21,713 nucleotides of DNA. Origin: a virus. Position 1 is the stretch's first letter; each line of letters opens with the position of its first letter. Under the pieces are notes generated by a model. It was not told the DNA's origin, ran no database searches, and worked only from the letters and a program-made list of their open reading frames with translations. Below are positions 1,581 to 21,709 of this stretch, piece after piece. The position numbers and the translations under genes are program-made. Location of the stretch: IMG/VR virus record IMGVR_UViG_3300025276_000248, positions 1 through 21,713 of that record; one strand, given 5' to 3'.

Positions 1581-1598
1581 ATTTACATATTTATAATC

Positions 1599-11814: not shown

Positions 11815-11822
11815 ACTATAAT

Positions 11823-11853
11823 TTGGCATAAAGCTAAAACAATCATATATTTA
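11823..11853 (+). promoter_or_regulatory. Probable Bacteroidetes-type promoter before the fibre operon
   Basis: TTG at 11823-11825 (within TTTGGC) is followed after exactly 20 bases by TATATTTA at 11846-11853. This fits the Bacteroidetes housekeeping consensus (-33 TTG, 17-23 bases, -7 TAnnTTTG), with A replacing the final G. It lies in a 60-base gap, one of the few in this window, and the ATG of the next gene is 21 bases past the -7 box, leaving room for a short leader. The same layout with the same 20-base spacer occurs at 20862-20892. Calling it a promoter is inference from sequence. Confidence 0.5.
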
Positions 11854-11874
11854 TAACAAAATACGTATTAAACA

Positions 11875-12534
11875 ATGGGATATTTAAATAATTCAGTAGT
11901 AACAGTAGATGCTATCCTTACAACAAAGGGTAGAGAGTTACTTGCTAAAAACGATGGTACATTCCGTATCACACAGTTTGCACTAGCAGATGATGAAATA
12001 GATTATACACTTTATAATCCAACTCACCCTTCAGGTTCAGCTTACTACGGTCAAGCTATTGAAAACATGCCTCTATTAGAAGCATTTCCTGATGAAACTC
12101 AAATCATGAAATATAAACTTACTACTTTACCACGTGGTACTGCTAAGATGCCAATCTTAGATGTAGGTTATACTTCAATCGTAATTAGACAAGGTGCTTC
12201 ATTAGCAATTACCCCACAAACTCTAAATTATTTAGGTGGTAACCAGAACGAAGCTTCAGGTTATACTGCTACTATTTCAGATGTTAGATTATTATCTACG
12301 TTTGAAGGTGTTGGTATTGATACACTCTCAACAGATGCTTTAAATGTTAATTCAACTACTACATTAGGTACTAACGTATCAGCAACAGTAATAGGTACAA
12401 CAATTAACCTTAGAGCAACTACAGTTAATACATTATTTGGTGCTAACACTGCGTTATATGCTACAATGACAGTTGTAGGTAGAGATAGTGGTGCAAGATT
12501 ACAAGTACCAATCACCATAACTAAAGTATCCTAA
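11875..12534 (+). CDS. Conserved phage structural protein with C-terminal Ig-like domain, 219 aa
   Basis: The first 120 residues (MGYLNNSVVTVDAILTTKGR, FRITQFALADDEIDYTLYN, SAYYGQAIENMPLLEAFPDE) match a well-conserved but functionally undefined structural protein that I recall from marine T4-like phage genomes. Residues about 125-219 look like an Ig-like beta-sandwich: alternating strands with Thr/Val-rich turns (NVSATVIGTTINLRATTV, LYATMTVVGRDSGARLQVPI). Ig-like domains on phage structural proteins are usually surface-exposed and may aid weak attachment to carbohydrates. It is the first gene after a probable promoter and lies two bases upstream of the next structural gene. A role in the tail/baseplate periphery or neck is inferred from neighbours; nothing in the sequence shows an enzymatic function. 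Confidence 0.65.
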   Translation: MGYLNNSVVTVDAILTTKGRELLAKNDGTFRITQFALADDEIDYTLYNPTHPSGSAYYGQAIENMPLLEAFPDETQIMKYKLTTLPRGTAKMPILDVGYTSIVIRQGASLAITPQTLNYLGGNQNEASGYTATISDVRLLSTFEGVGIDTLSTDALNVNSTTTLGTNVSATVIGTTINLRATTVNTLFGANTALYATMTVVGRDSGARLQVPITITKVS

Positions 12535-13571: not shown

Positions 13572-14546
13572 ATGAGCGCATTCAAACAATTTTTATCACA
13601 GGATTTAACAGTAGAACCCTTTAGAGTAAATAAGGGGTTCTCCTTTCCTTCTCCTGAATTTACAGACTTCAATGTTGAAATTGATAGATTAGTAGGGCTT
13701 AATGGTAATTTCGAATTTACCCAATCCCTTACAGGAAATAATTCAGACCAATATTCTGTTTTAATATATGATTCTGCTAAAGAATTATATTATTCTAACT
13801 TTTTAACCTCATCATATGGTTCTCCTGTCCAAACACAAAGTTTATTCCCTGGAGAAAATATAGAGGGTGATGCATTTGTGGGTAGTCCTGATTCTTCAGG
13901 TAGATATGAAAATTATCTTCAATCTACAGATGATGTAGTAAGATTTTTCCCTACAGCCTCTAGCGATCAAATCTTTGTACTTTCAATCCCATCACGTTTA
14001 TGGGGTGACTATATTCAACCTAATTCTTTTGAGTATAGAGTTATAGATGCTGATAACATTACTCATATTATTACTGATGATGGAAATGGTAATCTTTATG
14101 TGGGAGGGATTTATGTAGGTAATATTATATACCCCCACGGAATAGCAGTATTTACAAAATTACAAGATAATGCACCACCAGCCCCAGAAGGTTATGGTCT
14201 TTCTGAATATGGAACTAATGTATATGGTGGTGGTATTTCTATAGCGGATTTAACTGGTACTAATGTAACTTGTTCATTTTCAAGTTCATTTGATATTTAC
14301 GAAACACAATATAAATCTACAATAAACGAATTCGAATTTAATTTTTCACAAAACCCATCCATAATCTCAGGATCCACAGATGGTACAGTTTATGATTTTG
14401 TAACAGGTTCTTTTTTCTCTCCTTACGTTAGCACCGTTGGGTTATATGATGATGCTCAAAATTTACTTGCAGTTGGAAAGTTGTCTCAACCACTCCCAAT
14501 ATCGAGAACAACTGATACTACTATATTTATAAACATAGATAGATAA
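13572..14546 (+). CDS. Phage structural protein, C-terminal paralogue of the preceding gene product, 324 aa
   Basis: The start is ATG at 13572 (MSAFKQFLSQDL); the nearby ATG at 13568 is in another frame. Residues 1-250 differ from the preceding protein and contain beta-rich sequence and a Gly/Tyr-rich loop (PEGYGLSEYGTNVYGGG). Residues about 250-324 mirror the preceding protein's C-terminus: FNFSQNPSIISGST, then SPYVSTVGLYDDAQNLLAVG and KLSQPLP. The shared domain suggests both attach to the same partner or assemble in the same way while exposing different N-terminal regions. It lies five bases upstream of the collagen-like fibre gene. The last codons include TATATTTATAA (14522-14532), similar to the -7 boxes elsewhere, but with no TTG at the right distance. 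Confidence 0.6.
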   Translation: MSAFKQFLSQDLTVEPFRVNKGFSFPSPEFTDFNVEIDRLVGLNGNFEFTQSLTGNNSDQYSVLIYDSAKELYYSNFLTSSYGSPVQTQSLFPGENIEGDAFVGSPDSSGRYENYLQSTDDVVRFFPTASSDQIFVLSIPSRLWGDYIQPNSFEYRVIDADNITHIITDDGNGNLYVGGIYVGNIIYPHGIAVFTKLQDNAPPAPEGYGLSEYGTNVYGGGISIADLTGTNVTCSFSSSFDIYETQYKSTINEFEFNFSQNPSIISGSTDGTVYDFVTGSFFSPYVSTVGLYDDAQNLLAVGKLSQPLPISRTTDTTIFINIDR

Positions 14547-14551
14547 TTACA

Positions 14552-17500
14552 ATGGGAAAAGGAACCGATAGACTAGAAAATATATTTGACCCCACAGTTG
14601 ATGAAATCAACCAGGGGTATACCATAAACGCTTGGCATGTATCACAATCAGTAAATGCCTTTACAGGTACAGGAAGTTTTGATATTGATATTGATGGAAG
14701 TTTAACCGTTACTGGTTCAATTTACCATATGGATGCACAAGATGCTAATGGTGTTGTAAATAACGTAGTAATTAGAGACGTATCTACAGGAGAATATTTT
14801 GTAACTGGTTCTTGGGGCGGTAACACCTCTGGTACCTCAGGTATAGACGGAACATCAGGAAGCTCAGGTTCATCAGGTACATCAGGCTCATCAGGTAGCT
14901 CGGGTACTTCAGGTTCAAGCGGTAGTTCAGGTACATCTGGTAGTTCAGGTTCTTCTGGTACTTCAGGTGCCGACGGTTCTTCAGGTTCAAGTGGTACATC
15001 AGGTGCAGACGGTTCATCAGGTTCATCAGGAACTTCAGGCGCTGATGGTTCTTCAGGTTCAAGCGGTACTTCAGGTGATTCAGGAAGTTCAGGTTCATCT
15101 GGTACTTCAGGTGCTGATGGTAGCTCAGGCTCATCAGGTACTTCAGGTACTGATGGTGTAGACGGTTCAAGTGGTTCATCAGGAACCTCAGGTGCAGATG
15201 GTAGCTCAGGCTCATCAGGAACTTCAGGTAATTCAGGTTCAAGCGGTAGCTCAGGAACTTCGGGTGCAGACGGTTCATCAGGTTCTTCAGGTACTTCAGG
15301 TGATTCAGGAAGTTCAGGCTCATCAGGTACTTCAGGTGATTCAGGAAGTTCAGGCTCATCAGGTACTTCAGGTGCTGACGGATCTTCAGGTTCATCAGGC
15401 ACATCTGGTGTAGACGGTTCGAGCGGTTCATCAGGTACTTCAGGTGTAGGAACAGACGGTTCATCTGGTTCATCAGGTACTTCAGGGGCAGACGGCCCTT
15501 CAGGTAGCTCAGGCTCATCAGGTACATCAGGTTCAAGTGGTAGCTCAGGTACTTCAGGTACTGGTAGAGCTGTGTCTGTATTAGATGAAGGTGGTTCCTT
15601 GACTACAGACGTTCTTTCACTTAATTTTATAGGTGCAGGTGTAACAGCAACAGATCCAGGCTCAAATAATAATATAACAGTAACTATCCCAGGTGGGGGT
15701 GGTGGATCAGGTTCATCAGGTTCTTCTGGTACTTCAGGAGCAGACGGTTCAAGCGGTTCATCAGGAACTTCAGGCGATTCAGGTTCATCAGGTTCATCTG
15801 GAACCTCAGGTATAGGTACAGATGGTAGCTCAGGTAGTTCAGGTACTTCAGGTGTAGGAACAGACGGTTCAAGTGGTTCATCTGGTACTTCAGGCGCAGA
15901 TGGCTCAAGCGGTTCATCTGGTACTTCAGGAGCAGAAGGTTCAAGCGGTTCATCAGGAACTTCAGGCGATTCAGGTTCAAGTGGTAGCTCTGGTACTTCA
16001 GGTACTGGTCAAGCCATTACAGTTATAGATGAAGTTACCACATTAACTACAGACGTATCTAAATTCACATTTTTAGGTGCTGGAGTAACAGCTGCTAATA
16101 GTGGTACTGAAGTAACAGTAACTATCCCAGGCGGTGGTGGTGGATCTGGATCAAGCGGTTCATCAGGTACATCAGGTTCAAGCGGTAGTTCAGGTACATC
16201 AGGAGAAGCAGGCTCCTCAGGCTCATCAGGTACCTCAGGCGAGGCCGGATCCAGTGGTTCATCCGGAACTTCAGGCTCATCAGGTTCAAGCGGTACTTCA
16301 GGATCAAGTGGTTCAAGCGGTACTTCAGGAGAAGCAGGCTCAAGTGGTAGCTCAGGTACTTCAGGCGATTCAGGTTCATCAGGTTCAAGTGGAACCTCAG
16401 GTTCAAGCGGTTCTTCAGGAACTAGTGGTTCTTCAGGTTCATCAGGTACTTCAGGTAACGATGGTTCTTCAGGTTCATCAGGTACTTCAGGTAACGATGG
16501 TTCTTCAGGTTCATCAGGTACTTCAGGCGATTCAGGTTCAAGCGGTAGCTCTGGTACTTCAGGTGCAGATGGTAGCTCAGGTAGCTCAGGTACTTCAGGT
16601 ATAGGAACAGACGGTTCAAGTGGTTCTTCAGGAACCTCAGGCGCAGACGGTTCAAGCGGTTCATCAGGAACTTCAGGCGCAGATGGCTCAAGCGGTTCAT
16701 CTGGTACTTCAGGCGATTCAGGTTCAAGCGGTAGCTCTGGTACTTCAGGTGCAGATGGTAGCTCAGGTAGCTCAGGTAGCTCAGGTACTTCAGGTATAGG
16801 AACAGACGGTTCAAGTGGTTCTTCAGGAACCTCAGGCGCAGATGGCTCAAGCGGTTCATCTGGTACTTCAGGTTCAAGTGGTAGCTCTGGTACTTCAGGT
16901 ACTGGTCGAGCCATTACAGTTATAGATGAAGTTACCACATTAACTACAGACGTATCTAAATTCACATTTTTAGGTGCTGGAGTAACAGCTGCTAATAGTG
17001 GTACTGAAGTAACAGTAACTATCCCAGGCGGTGGTGGTGGATCTGGATCAAGCGGTTCATCAGGTACATCAGGTTCAAGCGGTAGTTCAGGTACATCAGG
17101 AGAAGCAGGCTCCTCAGGCTCATCAGGTACCTCAGGCGAGGCCGGATCCAGTGGTTCATCCGGAACTTCAGGCTCATCAGGTTCAAGCGGTACTTCAGGA
17201 TCAAGTGGTTCAAGCGGTACTTCAGGAGAAGCAGGCTCAAGTGGTAGCTCAGGTACTTCAGGCGATTCAGGTTCATCAGGTTCAAGTGGAACCTCAGGTT
17301 CAAGCGGTTCTTCAGGAACTAGTGGTTCTTCAGGTTCATCAGGTACTTCAGGTAACGATGGTTCTTCAGGTTCATCAGGTACTTCAGGTAACGATGGTTC
17401 TTCAGGTTCATCAGGTACTTCAGGCGATTCAGGTTCAAGCGGTAGCTCTGGTACTTCAGGTGCAGATGGTAGCTCAGGTAGCTCAGGTACTTCAGGTATA

Positions 17501-18682
17501 GGAACAGACGGTTCAAGTGGTTCTTCAGGAACCTCAGGCGCAGACGGTTCAAGCGGTTCATCAGGAACTTCAGGCGCAGATGGCTCAAGCGGTTCATCTG
17601 GTACTTCAGGCGATTCAGGTTCAAGCGGTAGCTCTGGTACTTCAGGTGCAGATGGTAGCTCAGGTAGCTCAGGTAGCTCAGGTACTTCAGGTATAGGAAC
17701 AGACGGTTCAAGTGGTTCTTCAGGAACCTCAGGCGCAGATGGCTCAAGCGGTTCATCTGGTACTTCAGGTTCAAGTGGTAGCTCTGGTACTTCAGGTACT
17801 GGTCGAGCCATTACAGTTATAGATGAAGTTACCACATTAACTACAGACGTATCTAAATTCACATTTTTAGGTGCTGGAGTAACAGCTGCTAATAGTGGTA
17901 CTGAAGTAACAGTAACTATCCCAGGTGGTGGTGGTGGTGGTTCTCAAAATGTATTTACTACTTCTTCAGTTTCAAATTCAGGAGTTAAACAAGCATCTAC
18001 TTCCCGAATTAAAACTACTACTGTAAACGATGATTTAACATTTAATTTTATAAATGAAGTTTCAGGTTCAACAAATACTGCAACAAAAACTTTAACAGTT
18101 TCATCCTTACCTTCCCCACAACTTTATCTTAAAAAAAATGAAGAAACTGGTCAAGGTGGTGCACAAACTATCGCATCTGATACTACTGGAAGTATAACTT
18201 GGAAAGATGGAGCTAATAATTATCAAGATAACGATCAATGGTTTACAGTTAATGGTGATAATCATTTTATATATGATCCTAACAACTCCACTACCTACTT
18301 CCAACTACTTCAAGAAGGTCTTTATGAATTTGATCTCCAATTAAAAACTGTAGGTAATTCTTCAGGTCAAAATCAATTTAGCCGTATCTCCTTTATCAGA
18401 GCCAGTTTACTTACACCCCCAATCCCAACCTTTATAGAGGTTATAGGAATGGGAGCTAATAATGCAAATAATACTAGTGCAAGGAAAGTCTCAACTACTT
18501 TTTATCTTTCTCAAGATAATATAGACAATCTAGAGAATTATTTTTATGTTACTACTGGAACCAGCGTTGATTTTGGTGCGGCAGCACAATCCCTACTTGT
18601 TGGAGGTGGTGGGTCTGATGGTATAAAAGGTAATTACTGTTCAATTAAATATATTTCTGATGCTGGTAAAGGTAGTCTATAA
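14552..18682 (+). CDS. Collagen-like tail fibre with repeated beta modules and C-terminal head, 1376 aa
   Basis: Residues 1-90 form an N-terminal domain like the attachment end of phage fibres (INAWHVSQSVNAFTGTGSF, GSLTVTGSIYHMD). Four long Gly-X-Y blocks (residues about 91-337, 384-486, 530-785 and 829-1084) are built mainly from SSG, TSG, ADG, DSG, EAG and NDG triplets. They are separated by four copies of a ~45-residue beta module (AITVIDEVTTLTTDVSKFTF, LGAGVTAANSGTEVTVTIP, then a Gly run) near residues 338, 487, 786 and 1085; the first copy is divergent. Residues about 1131-1376 form a separate beta-rich C-terminal domain (GLYEFDLQLKTVG, FSRISFIRASL, ARKVSTTFYLS) that resembles a C1q/TNF-like trimeric head by strand pattern only. 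It likely forms a trimeric host-contacting fibre. The stalk has only one proline in its triplets, unlike animal collagen. An exact 897-bp tandem duplication lies within the gene. Confidence 0.8.
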   Translation: MGKGTDRLENIFDPTVDEINQGYTINAWHVSQSVNAFTGTGSFDIDIDGSLTVTGSIYHMDAQDANGVVNNVVIRDVSTGEYFVTGSWGGNTSGTSGIDGTSGSSGSSGTSGSSGSSGTSGSSGSSGTSGSSGSSGTSGADGSSGSSGTSGADGSSGSSGTSGADGSSGSSGTSGDSGSSGSSGTSGADGSSGSSGTSGTDGVDGSSGSSGTSGADGSSGSSGTSGNSGSSGSSGTSGADGSSGSSGTSGDSGSSGSSGTSGDSGSSGSSGTSGADGSSGSSGTSGVDGSSGSSGTSGVGTDGSSGSSGTSGADGPSGSSGSSGTSGSSGSSGTSGTGRAVSVLDEGGSLTTDVLSLNFIGAGVTATDPGSNNNITVTIPGGGGGSGSSGSSGTSGADGSSGSSGTSGDSGSSGSSGTSGIGTDGSSGSSGTSGVGTDGSSGSSGTSGADGSSGSSGTSGAEGSSGSSGTSGDSGSSGSSGTSGTGQAITVIDEVTTLTTDVSKFTFLGAGVTAANSGTEVTVTIPGGGGGSGSSGSSGTSGSSGSSGTSGEAGSSGSSGTSGEAGSSGSSGTSGSSGSSGTSGSSGSSGTSGEAGSSGSSGTSGDSGSSGSSGTSGSSGSSGTSGSSGSSGTSGNDGSSGSSGTSGNDGSSGSSGTSGDSGSSGSSGTSGADGSSGSSGTSGIGTDGSSGSSGTSGADGSSGSSGTSGADGSSGSSGTSGDSGSSGSSGTSGADGSSGSSGSSGTSGIGTDGSSGSSGTSGADGSSGSSGTSGSSGSSGTSGTGRAITVIDEVTTLTTDVSKFTFLGAGVTAANSGTEVTVTIPGGGGGSGSSGSSGTSGSSGSSGTSGEAGSSGSSGTSGEAGSSGSSGTSGSSGSSGTSGSSGSSGTSGEAGSSGSSGTSGDSGSSGSSGTSGSSGSSGTSGSSGSSGTSGNDGSSGSSGTSGNDGSSGSSGTSGDSGSSGSSGTSGADGSSGSSGTSGIGTDGSSGSSGTSGADGSSGSSGTSGADGSSGSSGTSGDSGSSGSSGTSGADGSSGSSGSSGTSGIGTDGSSGSSGTSGADGSSGSSGTSGSSGSSGTSGTGRAITVIDEVTTLTTDVSKFTFLGAGVTAANSGTEVTVTIPGGGGGGSQNVFTTSSVSNSGVKQASTSRIKTTTVNDDLTFNFINEVSGSTNTATKTLTVSSLPSPQLYLKKNEETGQGGAQTIASDTTGSITWKDGANNYQDNDQWFTVNGDNHFIYDPNNSTTYFQLLQEGLYEFDLQLKTVGNSSGQNQFSRISFIRASLLTPPIPTFIEVIGMGANNANNTSARKVSTTFYLSQDNIDNLENYFYVTTGTSVDFGAAAQSLLVGGGGSDGIKGNYCSIKYISDAGKGSL
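16012..16908 (+). repeat. Tandem direct repeat, copy 1 (897 bp), in collagen-like fibre gene
   Basis: Each copy encodes one beta module followed by one collagen-like block (299 residues, frame preserved). Base-by-base reading shows copy 1 identical to copy 2 at 16909-17805. Identity continues past the second copy to 17925, so the third beta-module copy is included. Upstream it reaches back to 15970 except for one difference at 16011 (A) versus 16908 (G), which changes Gln to Arg. Third-codon positions are identical too, whereas the earlier collagen-like blocks use scrambled synonymous Ser/Gly codons. Confidence 0.95.
16909..17805 (+). repeat. Tandem direct repeat, copy 2 (897 bp), in collagen-like fibre gene
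   Basis: This is the second copy of the 897-bp unit, directly adjoining the first and identical to it. The sequence continues to match the unit for another 120 bases, to 17925; at 17926 C becomes T (GGC to GGT) and the sequence then runs into the unique C-terminal head. The structure looks like an unequal-exchange or slippage product between neighbouring beta-module copies. Confidence 0.95.
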
Positions 18683-18692
18683 TAATTAAAAT

Positions 18693-19148
18693 ATGAATTG
18701 GTTATATAAAGGGGAAGAAATGACTTCTTTGGAGTCATTTCCCCCATCAACATTCGGTTTCGTATATAGAGTAATCCACATCCCAAGTGGTAAAGCTTAT
18801 ATAGGAAAAAAATTCGTTAAATTTACTCGTAAAGCTAAATTAACTAAAAAAGATTTAGCATTATATGAAGGTACTAAAGGTAGAAAACCATCATACAAAC
18901 AAGTAGTAAAAGAAAGCGATTGGCAAACCTATTGGGGTTCAAATAAAACCCTAACGAACTTACTAGAGAACGAACCTATAGAGAATTTCAAACGTGAAAT
19001 TTTAACTTTGGCTACCTCAAAGAAGTTATTAACTTACGAGGAAACAAAAGCACAGTTTATCTACGAGGTATTAGAAAATCCAAACGATTTCTTCAACGAT
19101 AACATTCTCGGCAAGTTCTACACAAAAGACTTTGAGTCCCAAAAATAG
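18693..19148 (+). CDS. GIY-YIG family nuclease, Seg-like, 151 aa
   Basis: The GIY-YIG core is visible: GFVYRVIHI (residues 22-30) provides the GIY strand and AYIGKKF (35-41) the YIG strand. Arg46 lies eight residues past the YIG motif, near where the catalytic arginine is expected. A glutamate in YEETKAQF (115-122) could be the metal-binding residue. The middle has a signature I recall from T4-like phage members: ESDWQTYWGSNKTL (74-87) and FKREIL (99-104). Such proteins are DNA nucleases, often homing endonucleases of the Seg type; a diverged housekeeping role is also possible. No separate DNA-binding domain is seen at this length. I choose ATG 18693 because the N-terminal WLYKGEE resembles relatives; an in-frame ATG at 18720 lies inside a 9-bp hairpin. 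The gene sits at the junction between fibre and replication genes, a typical free-standing homing endonuclease location. Confidence 0.75.
   Translation: MNWLYKGEEMTSLESFPPSTFGFVYRVIHIPSGKAYIGKKFVKFTRKAKLTKKDLALYEGTKGRKPSYKQVVKESDWQTYWGSNKTLTNLLENEPIENFKREILTLATSKKLLTYEETKAQFIYEVLENPNDFFNDNILGKFYTKDFESQK
18717..18741 (+). other. Perfect 9-bp inverted repeat over the 5' end of the nuclease gene
   Basis: GAAATGACT (18717-18725) and AGTCATTTC (18733-18741) are exact reverse complements with a 7-base loop. In mRNA this would form a hairpin covering codons 9-17 of the GIY-YIG gene, including an in-frame ATG at 18720. There is no T-tract after it, only a run of C, so it does not look like an intrinsic terminator for the fibre gene. 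Hairpins restrain translation of some T4 homing endonuclease genes; a similar role here is inference. Confidence 0.5.
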
Positions 19149-19166: not shown

Positions 19167-20093
19167 ATGATAAATCACCTATTAGTAAACATAGTTAACT
19201 CCGTTTTAGGAGCCGGTAAATCTACAGCTAGAGGCAATCAAGCCTACCACTGTCCGTTTTGCCATCACTCTAAACCAAAATTAGAGGTTAACTTTACTGA
19301 TGGACAGAAAAATCCTTGGCACTGTTGGGTATGTAATAAGAAAGGTACAAATCTAGTTACCTTACTCAAACAAGCCAAAGCCCCTGACGATAAGATTGCT
19401 GAAATTAAAAAGCATGTATCCTATAGAGATTATAGAGATAATATCAAACCAGCTGAGGCAGTTAAATTACCTAAAGAATTTAAACCATTTGTAGACATAT
19501 CAAAAGGCGATATGACTGGAAGACAAGCCATATCTTACTTAAAACGTCGTAACGTAAGTAAAGCGGATATACTGCGCTACAATATTGGTTATTGCGATGG
19601 CGGTGTCTATGACAAGATGATTATAATACCGTCGTATTCCCACGAGGGAACGCTAAATTACTTCGTAGCTCGTAACTTCAATGAGCACAGCCCTGTTAAG
19701 TATAAAAACCCACCAATGAGTAAAGATGTAGTGCCATTTGAATTGTTTATCAATTGGTCATCTCCACTAGTTTTGGTTGAAGGTATGTTTGATGCATTGG
19801 CTATAAAACGAAATGCTATACCATTATTAGGTAAACATATTCAGAGAGAATTAATGAAGAAGATTGTTACATCACAAGTAGAAAAAATATATATAGCTTT
19901 AGATAAGGACGCGCAGAAAGATGCCGTTAAGTTTTGTGAACAGTTGATGGATGAAGGTAAAGAAATATACCTAGTAGATTTAGAAGATAAAGACCCATCG
20001 GAAATGGGATTCAAAGCTATTACTACCCTAATCCAGAAAACAACCCCATTGAGTCAATATGATTTAATGGCTAAAAAATTACAATTTGTATGA
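19167..20093 (+). CDS. DNA primase, gp61/DnaG-type (zinc ribbon plus TOPRIM), 308 aa
   Basis: An N-terminal zinc-binding element is clear: HCPFCHH (C29, C32) and WHCWVCNKKG (C53, C56), a CX2C...CX2C ribbon used by primases to recognise template. The RNA polymerase core follows: basic/substrate region with YDKMIIIPS and YFVARNF (residues 148-171), then the TOPRIM fold with LVLVEGMFDAL (Glu205, Asp209), IYIALDKDAQ (Asp246, Asp248) and EDKDPSEMG (around Asp276). These acidic residues bind catalytic metal. Length is near T4 gp61 (342 residues), and no helicase domain is fused, so a separate replicative helicase is expected elsewhere. It makes RNA primers for lagging-strand synthesis. The stop overlaps the next start (ATGA, 20090-20093), coupling it to the PD-(D/E)XK nuclease. 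Just upstream, ATAGGG/CCCTAT (19145-19150 and 19163-19168) could pair across the start codon. Confidence 0.87.
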   Translation: MINHLLVNIVNSVLGAGKSTARGNQAYHCPFCHHSKPKLEVNFTDGQKNPWHCWVCNKKGTNLVTLLKQAKAPDDKIAEIKKHVSYRDYRDNIKPAEAVKLPKEFKPFVDISKGDMTGRQAISYLKRRNVSKADILRYNIGYCDGGVYDKMIIIPSYSHEGTLNYFVARNFNEHSPVKYKNPPMSKDVVPFELFINWSSPLVLVEGMFDALAIKRNAIPLLGKHIQRELMKKIVTSQVEKIYIALDKDAQKDAVKFCEQLMDEGKEIYLVDLEDKDPSEMGFKAITTLIQKTTPLSQYDLMAKKLQFV

Positions 20094-20872
20094 GTAAGAA
20101 AATTGTTTTAAAGAATTCTTACAAACGTATTTTGGAAGTATCAGATGATGCTAAACAAATTACAATGCCTGATTCTCGTTACTATCAACGTAATGGGGAC
20201 TTTTACCCATCTATTACTTATGTTTTAGGTTCTTACCCAAAAGGTAAATACTTTGAAGATTGGTTAAAGAAAGTAGGATATGCTTCGGAGCACATCGTAC
20301 GTAAAGCAGCAAATCAAGGTACTGAAACTCATGAAATGATTGAGGATTACTTGAATGGTAAAGAATTAAATTTCTTATCTAAATCAGGCCACCCACAATA
20401 TGATACACTTGTTTGGCAAATGTTCTTACGTTTTGTTGATTTTTGGGAAGAGTACAAACCAGAACTAGTTGAGACTGAAGTACATCTATTCTCAGATGAA
20501 CTTAAAGTAGCAGGTACTTGTGATATGCTTTGTAAAATCGATGGTGAACTTTGGATTATTGATTTTAAAACATCTAACCATCTCCAAACAACATATGATC
20601 TTCAAACTGCGGTTTATGGTAAATGTTACGAGGAATGTTTTGGACATACCCCAGATCGTTATGGTGTTTTATGGTTAAAGTCAAATAAGCGTAAAGCAGC
20701 TGAAGGTAAGATTCAAGGTAAAGGTTGGGAAATGTACGAATCAAAACGTAGCCAAGAAGAAAATCTTGACATTTTCCAAACAGTTAAAAAATTGTTTGAT
20801 CTTGAAAACCCATCACACAAACCAGCATTTACTAAATTTAGAACATCTGCGCGCCGAATACTTGGAGATTAA
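20090..20872 (+). CDS. PD-(D/E)XK nuclease, RecB/Cas4-like, 260 aa
   Basis: All core motifs of the RecB-type PD-(D/E)XK fold appear in order: GTETHEMIEDYL with His81; ETEVHLFSDELKVAGTCDML with Asp145; LWIIDFKTS with Asp158 and Lys160; and the helix motif YDLQTAVYG with Gln172 and Tyr176. These residues bind the metal and cut DNA, so the enzyme should be active. The N-terminal region has YPSITYVLGSYPKGKYFEDWL, a lead-in typical of this family in phages. Cysteines C144, C148, C179 and C183 do not have the spacing of the Cas4/AddB iron-sulphur site. It is translationally coupled to the primase (ATGA overlap), which suggests work at the replication fork or in recombination or DNA end-processing; degradation of host DNA is an alternative. 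The last codons contain the TTG box of the next probable promoter. Confidence 0.83.
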   Translation: MSKKIVLKNSYKRILEVSDDAKQITMPDSRYYQRNGDFYPSITYVLGSYPKGKYFEDWLKKVGYASEHIVRKAANQGTETHEMIEDYLNGKELNFLSKSGHPQYDTLVWQMFLRFVDFWEEYKPELVETEVHLFSDELKVAGTCDMLCKIDGELWIIDFKTSNHLQTTYDLQTAVYGKCYEECFGHTPDRYGVLWLKSNKRKAAEGKIQGKGWEMYESKRSQEENLDIFQTVKKLFDLENPSHKPAFTKFRTSARRILGD

Positions 20873-20892
20873 AGGAATCTTTCGTATATTTA
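20862..20892 (+). promoter_or_regulatory. Probable Bacteroidetes-type promoter before the P-loop kinase gene
   Basis: TTG at 20862-20864 (TTGGA) is followed after exactly 20 bases by TATATTTA at 20885-20892, the same spacing and -7 box as at 11823-11853. The TTG lies in the final codons of the nuclease gene. A 5-bp inverted repeat, AGATT (20866-20870) and AATCT (20876-20880), sits between the two boxes and may be an operator or chance. The kinase ATG at 20909 is 16 bases past the -7 box. No experiment is available; the call rests on the match and its repetition. Confidence 0.5.
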
Positions 20893-20908
20893 TGGTAAAC
20901 GCGTGTTT

Positions 20909-21709
20909 ATGATATCGTTAGTACAATTATTAAATGAAGTAGAAGGTAACCCTAAAGCTATCATATTAGCTGGTGCTCCTGGTGCTGGGAAAGGTTATGT
21001 GTTAAAAGGTTTAGACTTAGGTGGTTTAAAAATAATGAATATTGATAACACATTTATCAGTATGCTTAAACAAGCCAACGTATCTTTAGATCTAAAAAAC
21101 GCTACACCTGAAGAAAGAAGCGAGCAAGCTAAAGCAATGGCTGCATCTAATAAAGAATTTAAAGGTGAAATCCAAGATACTATAGCAGGCAGAGAATCAT
21201 TTATTTTAGATGGTACGGCTGCTTCACTCAAGCAAACCACCTTACTTAAAGACCAATTAGAAGAAGCTGGGTATAGTGTATTTATGCTCTATGTTTATAC
21301 TGATCTAGAACGTTCACTTATTCAAAATCAAGACAGATTTGAAAAATCAGGTGGTGAAGATAGAAGTTTAGCACCAGCTATTGTATTGCGTACCTGGAAA
21401 AGTGTAACAGATAATTTAAAACCATATGCTGATTTATTTGGCAATAACTTTGCAGCAGTAGCTAATACATTAGAAGGTAATAAAATAAAAGATGTTGAAG
21501 ATATTCTTAAAACATATTTAGAACCATTTACACCCACAGGTACTAAACCTAAAACACCTGCCCAACAGGAAAAATCAAAACAACAAAAACTTGAGCTAAA
21601 TGCTGAAATTCAAGCTATGTTAAATGATGAATTTTTAGAAGATGTACTTACCTACACTGTATCTAAAGATGAGGCTCAAAGTAAACTACAGAATTTTTTA
21701 CGTTCATGA
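20909..21709 (+). CDS. P-loop kinase, zeta-toxin/AAA_33-like, 266 aa
   Basis: Residues 17-29 (AIILAGAPGAGKG) are a strong Walker A motif. NIDNTF (residues 44-49) fits a substrate-binding Asp, SFILDGTAAS (97-106) a Walker B-like strand, and VYTDLERSLIQNQDRF (129-144) with VLRTWKSV (159-166) a basic lid. This layout belongs to zeta-toxin-like and polynucleotide-kinase-like P-loop kinases; which substrate is phosphorylated cannot be read from the sequence. Residues about 205-235 are a Lys/Gln/Pro-rich linker (TKPKTPAQQEKSKQQK), and the C-terminal 35 residues form an extra helical segment. I prefer ATG 20909 over the in-frame GTG at 20903, because a transcript from the promoter at 20862-20892 should begin near 20899 and the ATG leaves a usable leader. 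No antitoxin-like partner is adjacent. The stop overlaps an ATG (ATGA at 21706-21709) that may start another gene cut by the window end. Confidence 0.7.
   Translation: MISLVQLLNEVEGNPKAIILAGAPGAGKGYVLKGLDLGGLKIMNIDNTFISMLKQANVSLDLKNATPEERSEQAKAMAASNKEFKGEIQDTIAGRESFILDGTAASLKQTTLLKDQLEEAGYSVFMLYVYTDLERSLIQNQDRFEKSGGEDRSLAPAIVLRTWKSVTDNLKPYADLFGNNFAAVANTLEGNKIKDVEDILKTYLEPFTPTGTKPKTPAQQEKSKQQKLELNAEIQAMLNDEFLEDVLTYTVSKDEAQSKLQNFLRS

Follow-up and report, generated by a model that had tools for sequence, protein, structure and literature searches.

Two sites in a 21.7 kb virus record (the window, by which we mean the whole stretch of DNA analysed) carry a short signal that is very probably a real phage promoter, and at both of them a host-type early promoter and a phage late promoter appear, on balance, to be superimposed. 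Site 1 (TTGGCATAAAGCTAAAACAATCATATATTTA, 11823-11853) is preceded by a T at 11822, which makes its upstream element TTTGG, and site 2 (TTGGAGATTAAAGGAATCTTTCGTATATTTA) lies at 20862-20892. As the first-pass annotation had reported, TTTGG-N19-TATATTTA is present at site 1 in the 60-base gap before gene 11875 (11815-11874), and a second match with an equal spacer and −7 element is present at site 2; the spacer from TTG to TATATTTA is 20 bases at both. Site 1 is intergenic, but the TTG of site 2 falls within the last codons of the exonuclease gene that precedes it (20090-20872, listed also as 20084-20872; codons ..LGD-stop). These two sites were the only forward matches to TTG-N20-TATATTTA in the window; there were none on its other strand and none to a reversed control pattern. 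In Markov-1 shuffles of the window 0.11 matches were expected by chance, with two or more in 1 of 300 shuffles; when the spacer was left free between 17 and 23, 0.73 were expected and two or more occurred in 52 of 300. Because spacer-free shuffles reached two matches this often, the pair alone is modest evidence, and it is the relatives that carry the case.

The string shared by the two sites runs past the −7 element of the first-pass annotation and reads ATATTTATAA. There are four such boxes in the window, ATATTTAT occurring also before genes 1599 (from 1587) and 14552 (from 14523), and the boxes at 1587 and 14522 have no TTG. What had been called a matched pair is thus two of four boxes. A pattern search for orthologs of gene 14552 found none. 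We also considered the box as an antisense copy of the T4 late promoter, TATAAATA; this minus-strand reading was rejected because the window genes and most boxes run with the sense strand. The features are collected in Table 1.

Table 1. Promoter elements and flanking genes in the window
Feature	Coordinates	Strand	Evidence
TTTGG, −33-like element, site 1 (early-type)	11822..11826	+	TTG at the same spacing in 28/79 related upstream regions
TATATTTATAAC, site 1	11846..11857	+	−7-like element 11846-11853; late-type ATATTTATAA 11847-11856
TTGG, −33-like element, site 2, in exonuclease coding end	20862..20865	+	TTG at 20 in 11/74 relatives
TATATTTA then TGG, −7-like element and box, site 2	20885..20892	+	TATTTAT 61/74, TATGTAT 13/74
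ATATTTATAA, third box, lacking TTG, upstream of gene 1599	1587..1596	+	upstream-region listing
TATATTTATAA, fourth box, no TTG, before Gly-Ser-Ser-rich fibre gene 14552	14522..14532	+	upstream-region listing
First gene of fibre module, 219-aa conserved protein	11875..12534	+	relatives 77-99% identical
Zeta-toxin-like P-loop kinase gene, downstream of site 2	20903..21709	+	PF06414, E 2.8e-14

The main genes of the window lie on the plus strand and encode baseplate wedge proteins, a 1875-aa protein, fibre-module proteins, a Gly-Ser-Ser-rich fibre, a SegE-type GIY-YIG protein, a primase, a PD-(D/E)XK exonuclease and the zeta-toxin-like kinase, whose gene starts at GTG 20903 or, more likely, at ATG 20909. 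Neither a PHROG nor a Pfam family matched the 219-aa protein. The closest isolate in the phage collection is Flavobacterium phage immuto (NC_055915), whose baseplate wedge protein is 45% identical over its full length, and its gene order (baseplate, fibre, GIY-YIG, primase, exonuclease) matches that of the window. The Gly-Ser-Ser-rich fibre gene contains a near-exact direct repeat of about 897 bp within 16009-17862, with identical translations at 16122-16604 and 17019-17501. The SegE-type nuclease-like protein (18693-19148) matches PF19835, and the label "NAD synthetase" carried by its PHROG family and by the immuto ortholog is probably a misnomer.

For the genome-wide counts, gene starts in immuto were those of the plus-strand genes of the record, with its few minus-strand genes left out, and those in Microcystis phage Mel-JY01 (PP395634), in the contigs G001, G002 and G004, and likewise in the pieces used of LR756508, FCL-2, phi38:1 and T4, were the longest ATG open reading frames of at least 45 aa. 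G001 is a related contig of 149.8 kb with 80% identity at the site-1 protein. The first-pass annotation had proposed a scan for enrichment upstream of gene starts, and this bore it out: TTG-N20-TATATTNA was concentrated there, standing before 27 genes in immuto (31 matches in all) and before 17 of 191 genes in G001 (21 in all). All 17 of the G001 sites had TTGG and 13 had TTTGG, and TTGG was present at 11 of the 12 upstream sites in G004 and in the early-type promoters of G002 as well. A scan of six contigs with this pattern gave 50 matches, which in each contig lay mostly on one strand; the reversed control gave 5. The spacing was strict: TTG stood at exactly 20 bases from 24 of 25 TAnnTTTAG boxes before immuto genes (3.2 in shuffles) and from 13 of 13 TAnnTTTG[TC]A boxes in Mel-JY01 (1.3 in shuffles). 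In the small-gene region of immuto at 66.5-78 kb, 24 genes are preceded by gaps of 25 bases or more; TATTTAT is absent upstream of all 24, and most have TTG followed at 20 bases by TATATTTAG or TATCTTTAG. In the same genome the TTG-N20-TAnnTTTAG class preceded 0 of 60 structural-module genes and 24 of 173 others (P 9e-4). The early-type sites mostly continued after TATATTNA with C in G001 (7/17) and G004 (8/12) and with G in immuto (19/27), rather than with TAA.

The final A in place of G in the −7 element, on which the first-pass annotation had remarked, is no accident of the window, being systematic in immuto, G001, G002 and G004. Since the G is nearly invariant in F. johnsoniae and A is found throughout the immuto early class, the suggested phage-specific recognition gains some weight. 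The early-type promoters of immuto between 60 and 76 kb end in TATATTTAG and never in TTTG. Its genes annotated for 7-deazaguanine in DNA include DpdA, QueC/D/E and FolE, and, as a speculation, modified G might be the reason for the absent TTTG ending. Many early-type leaders of G001 (for example, before 352, 3119, 105124 and 143987) share AATAAAGGTT as their last bases, adjoining the ATG; the late-type leaders compared with them lack this motif. Mel-JY01 was recorded from Microcystis elabens and has 13 Bacteroidetes-type TTG-N20-TAnnTTTG promoters (such as those before genes 63103, 64093, 69164, 98346 and 143155) together with the late-type box, which suggests that its true host may be a Bacteroidetes bacterium in the Microcystis culture. 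For the window itself, the Bacteroidetes host named in the first-pass annotation is likely, given the Flavobacterium host of immuto and the promoter type.

The longer box forms a class of its own. There were 34 [AC]TATTTAT sites in immuto, 20 in Mel-JY01 and 34 in G001, and TTG at 18-22 bases from them was found in 7/34, 1/20 and 5/34, respectively, compared with 3.1, 1.7 and 2.8 in shuffles, so that TTG near boxes is close to chance genome-wide. In immuto the box favours structural-module genes, standing before 19 of 60 of them but before 15 of the 173 other genes (Fisher P 6e-5). Both classes emerged from unbiased 8-mer counts in immuto, and the box did so in Mel-JY01 and G001 too: ATATTTAT occurred upstream 32 times in G001 (1.4 expected, 0 on the opposite strand) and 19 times in Mel-JY01 (2.5 expected, 2 on the opposite strand), and TATTTATA 24 times in immuto (0.6 expected, 6 on the opposite strand). 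No ATATTTAT was found upstream of 73 genes of FCL-2 or 78 of phi38:1, control phages of Flavobacterium and Cellulophaga, and an artefact of base composition was ruled out by these two phages together with reverse-complement and letter-shuffled controls. The box mostly lies 13-37 bases upstream of start codons. Where TTGG was found 15-25 bases before a box, it stood at 20 in G001 (3), G002 (1), G004 (1) and the window (2), the exception being one TTGG at 15 in G004. By their letters, sites 1 and 2 are of this composite kind, TTGG at 20 plus the box. Immuto has no TTGG composite site; two of its upstream boxes have TTG at 20, one of them that of gp107. Directly before immuto gp089 (106221) there is no TATTTATAA box, and TATTTATTT lies 67 bases upstream.

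To follow site 1 among relatives we collected 80 IMG/VR loci with a relative of the gene-11875 protein, of which 78 were usable (in L025 and L032 the match begins inside the gene), giving 79 rows with the window. In these upstream regions ATATTTATAA was present in 72/79 and TATTTATA in 75/79, at 15-32 bases from the ATG. TTG at 17-23 bases from TATATTTA was seen in 30 of 78 rows, 28 times at 20 and twice at 19, and never at 17, 18 or 21-23; TTG at 20 was missing in 51/79. Among 39 less similar representatives TTG was present in 9, compared with about 2 predicted by shuffling. On a gene tree of the 79 rows, the TTG-at-20 state (28 rows) needs 4 changes; it is found in 23 of the 27 rows of the group containing the window, and a separate group of four also has TTG. 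Conservation of the site 1 TTG is partly common descent. In rows with TTG the gap to the previous gene is mostly 56-78 bases, and in those without it mostly 25-54. We concluded from the conservation, the tree and the gap pattern that the box is the general element and TTG an addition retained in some lineages. The positional counterpart of site 1 in immuto, gp107 (90688), reads TTG-N20-TATATTTATAA.

For site 2 a separate set of 80 loci was used, of which five with little or no sequence past the gene were left out (L073, L099, L141, L145 and L148, though L148 does have about 100 bases there and was passed over all the same), and L011 was too short and was dropped at counting, leaving 74 relatives. 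Every one of them has either TATTTAT (61/74) or TATGTAT (13/74) 3' of the exonuclease gene. The box is kept despite strongly diverged flanks and often overlaps the stop codon. TTG at 20 was present in 11 of the 74, all with the protein end LGD as in the window, and missing in 63; no TTG at other spacers within 17-23 was found among them. The exonuclease ends in LGD where TTGG is present and mostly in KRKL-like residues where it is absent, so that this end of the protein varies together with the promoter element; the coding sequence may have adapted to hold it.

A candidate reader of the box is encoded directly upstream of the baseplate module. The profile of PHROG_234, the family of T4 gp55, gave one weak match in each of four of five records searched, always to the same syntenic gene (in one-genome searches E was 0.008 for immuto gp118, 2e-4 for G004 and 0.009-0.012 for G003 and G001); at the same loose threshold it also matched in 7 of 14 control genomes, and in a library scan the protein scored E 0.2 or worse. 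Pfam Sigma70_r2 was the best family for three of the four orthologs (E 0.002-0.004, below the curated cut-off), and no Pfam family was found for that of immuto. A profile of the family had no match in T4 and, among PDB sequences, only chance-level matches to LuxR-family regulators; PHROG_12791 had no match in the five records, and a family search of FCL-2 and phi38:1 was empty, which says little alone. A structural model built with 32 sequences (pLDDT 76.7, pTM 0.45) resembles sigma domain 2. Its top Foldseek matches were mostly sigma factors (best E 0.36), and the aligner's 50 rows were sigma factors or polymerase complexes with Z about 8-10, a value that helical models can attain without kinship; the matches were confined to the first domain (2.5-3.5 Å over 94-102 residues). 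We regard it as likely that this protein is sigma-like and, given that the profile, Pfam and structure matches are all weak, use only that name for it. Relatives of the protein are encoded in at least 595 stretches of IMG/VR. The run of immuto genes that leads to gp118 has an early-type promoter upstream, before gene 76244, and G001 has a variant ending in TATATTGG at the same position, before 11153. The gene directly after the sigma-like gene has the box (immuto 78906, G001 13158).

The two sequence classes, where they lie, their conservation and their division between gene classes are observed; from them we infer promoter activity, its timing and which factor reads which element, as follows. 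TTTGG or CTTGG upstream of TATATTTA, at a spacer of 20 bases counted from TTG, would be the early-type promoter of the phage group, read by host RNA polymerase with the Bacteroidetes-type primary sigma factor, and ATATTTATAA would be the single-element promoter box of structural and some other phage genes, read by the host core polymerase with a phage sigma, most likely the sigma-like protein. Early in infection, the host polymerase would use promoters of the TTGG-N19-TATATTTA type, those ahead of the sigma-like gene among them, and would read the composite sites to some degree as well; later, the phage sigma would redirect the core polymerase to ATATTTATAA, with no need of an upstream element. 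Most box sites would then carry the late element alone and the two reported sites both elements, so that the fibre module and gene 20903 could be transcribed early and late. In F. johnsoniae transcription begins 4-5 bases past the −7 element (PMC6847099), and the same distance here would put the predicted starts near 11858 and 20897. Several points count against this scheme. LR756508 encodes a sigma-like protein (43% identity) yet has the box before 0 of 49 open reading frames in the 50 kb read (95-145 kb), with no other clear motif there; 15 immuto boxes precede genes outside the structural modules; the sigma assignment is weak in sequence; and common descent accounts in part for the conserved TTG of site 1. 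A broader picture, which we advance tentatively as one possibility, is that of an abundant group of T4-related phages, probably infecting Bacteroidetes, with its own late system, in which a divergent gp55-like sigma would recognise ATATTTATAA, which mirrors the T4 late box in orientation and overlaps the host −7 element, and TTGG-at-20 sites, sites 1 and 2 among them, would act as early-to-late relays, the same bases being read by the host and then by the phage sigma.

The sites might instead be plain host promoters, TTTGG-N19-TATATTTA with A for G, used by the host primary sigma alone and followed by an incidental TAA. They fit the early-type grammar of the relatives exactly, and two or more matches arose once in 300 shuffles; however, the box persists without TTG in most relatives of either site, and the early-type promoters of those relatives continue mostly with C or G rather than TAA, which makes this explanation quite unlikely. 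The host-promoter claim of the first-pass annotation stands as far as a genuine Bacteroidetes-like grammar of the phage group is concerned, but the conserved element is the longer ATATTTATAA; as it is conserved, free of TTG at most sites and biased toward structural genes, the sites are not simply a pair of host promoters. The same persistence of the box at sites 1 and 2 would suit purely late promoters, in which ATATTTATAA alone matters and TTGG is due to chance at site 1 and to protein coding at site 2, where it does encode the LGD end of the exonuclease. We consider this unlikely, as TTG is confined to 19-20 bases at site 1 and to 20 at site 2, is kept in most rows of the tree group of the window and found in another group, and stands at 20 in the immuto ortholog of site 1 as well.

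That the box is no promoter but works at the RNA level, marking translation starts or processing sites, is highly improbable. Its usual position shortly before start codons would allow such a role, and Bacteroidetes lack Shine-Dalgarno sequences (PMC6847099). Against it, the distance to the ATG varies (15-32 bases at site 1), and the box is missing from most genes of the same genomes. The box also shares bases with the −7 element of a recognisable promoter class, and each of the two classes goes with its own set of genes.

None of the papers listed in our literature searches dealt with late promoters of Bacteroidetes phages. With a recognisable early class, a late one and a candidate sigma factor for the latter, temporal gene classes could be assigned from contigs alone and hosts hinted at for many uncultured phages, the sigma-like protein being encoded in hundreds of IMG/VR stretches. 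T4 late transcription could also be compared with its counterpart in a distant host group, and Flavobacterium genetics would gain phage promoters.

Among known systems, the sites resemble first the Bacteroidetes sigma-ABfr promoter, with TTTG at −33 (site 1), an AT-rich spacer of fixed length and TAnnTTT at −7. The consensus is TTTG at −33 and TAnnTTTG at −7 (PMC6847099 and PMC7366714), and in F. johnsoniae the −7 element closes with an almost invariant G and the start lies 4-5 bases past it (PMC6847099). Unlike that promoter, TATATTTA ends in A at both sites, site 2 has only TTG (CTTGG) at −33, and the box continues as TAA and is conserved without the −33 element. The 20-base spacing of the sites equals that of the early-type promoters of related phages (immuto 24/25, Mel-JY01 13/13, G001 17). 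Immuto shares syntenic genes and both promoter classes with the window, although its early class differs in having TATATTTAG with TTGC or TTGG. The second resemblance is to the late promoters of T4, which consist of an 8-bp box without a −35 element (PMC2988020); TATAAAT is given for this box in PMC3037559. As at T4 late promoters, a single box of A and T only, about 8-10 bp long, stands before structural genes, a bias seen in the structural modules of immuto. Upstream elements give a mixed picture, most box sites having none and sites 1 and 2 having TTGG. There is a candidate phage sigma factor, although the link of the sigma-like protein to gp55 is weak. Unlike the T4 late box, the sense-strand TATTTATA is the reverse complement of TATAAATA, and TTGG accompanies two of the four window boxes, those at 1587 and 14522 being without it. 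Both comparisons fail on a defining letter, and we therefore filed the sites under neither sigma-ABfr nor T4 late promoters; they would seem to work like a blend of the two.
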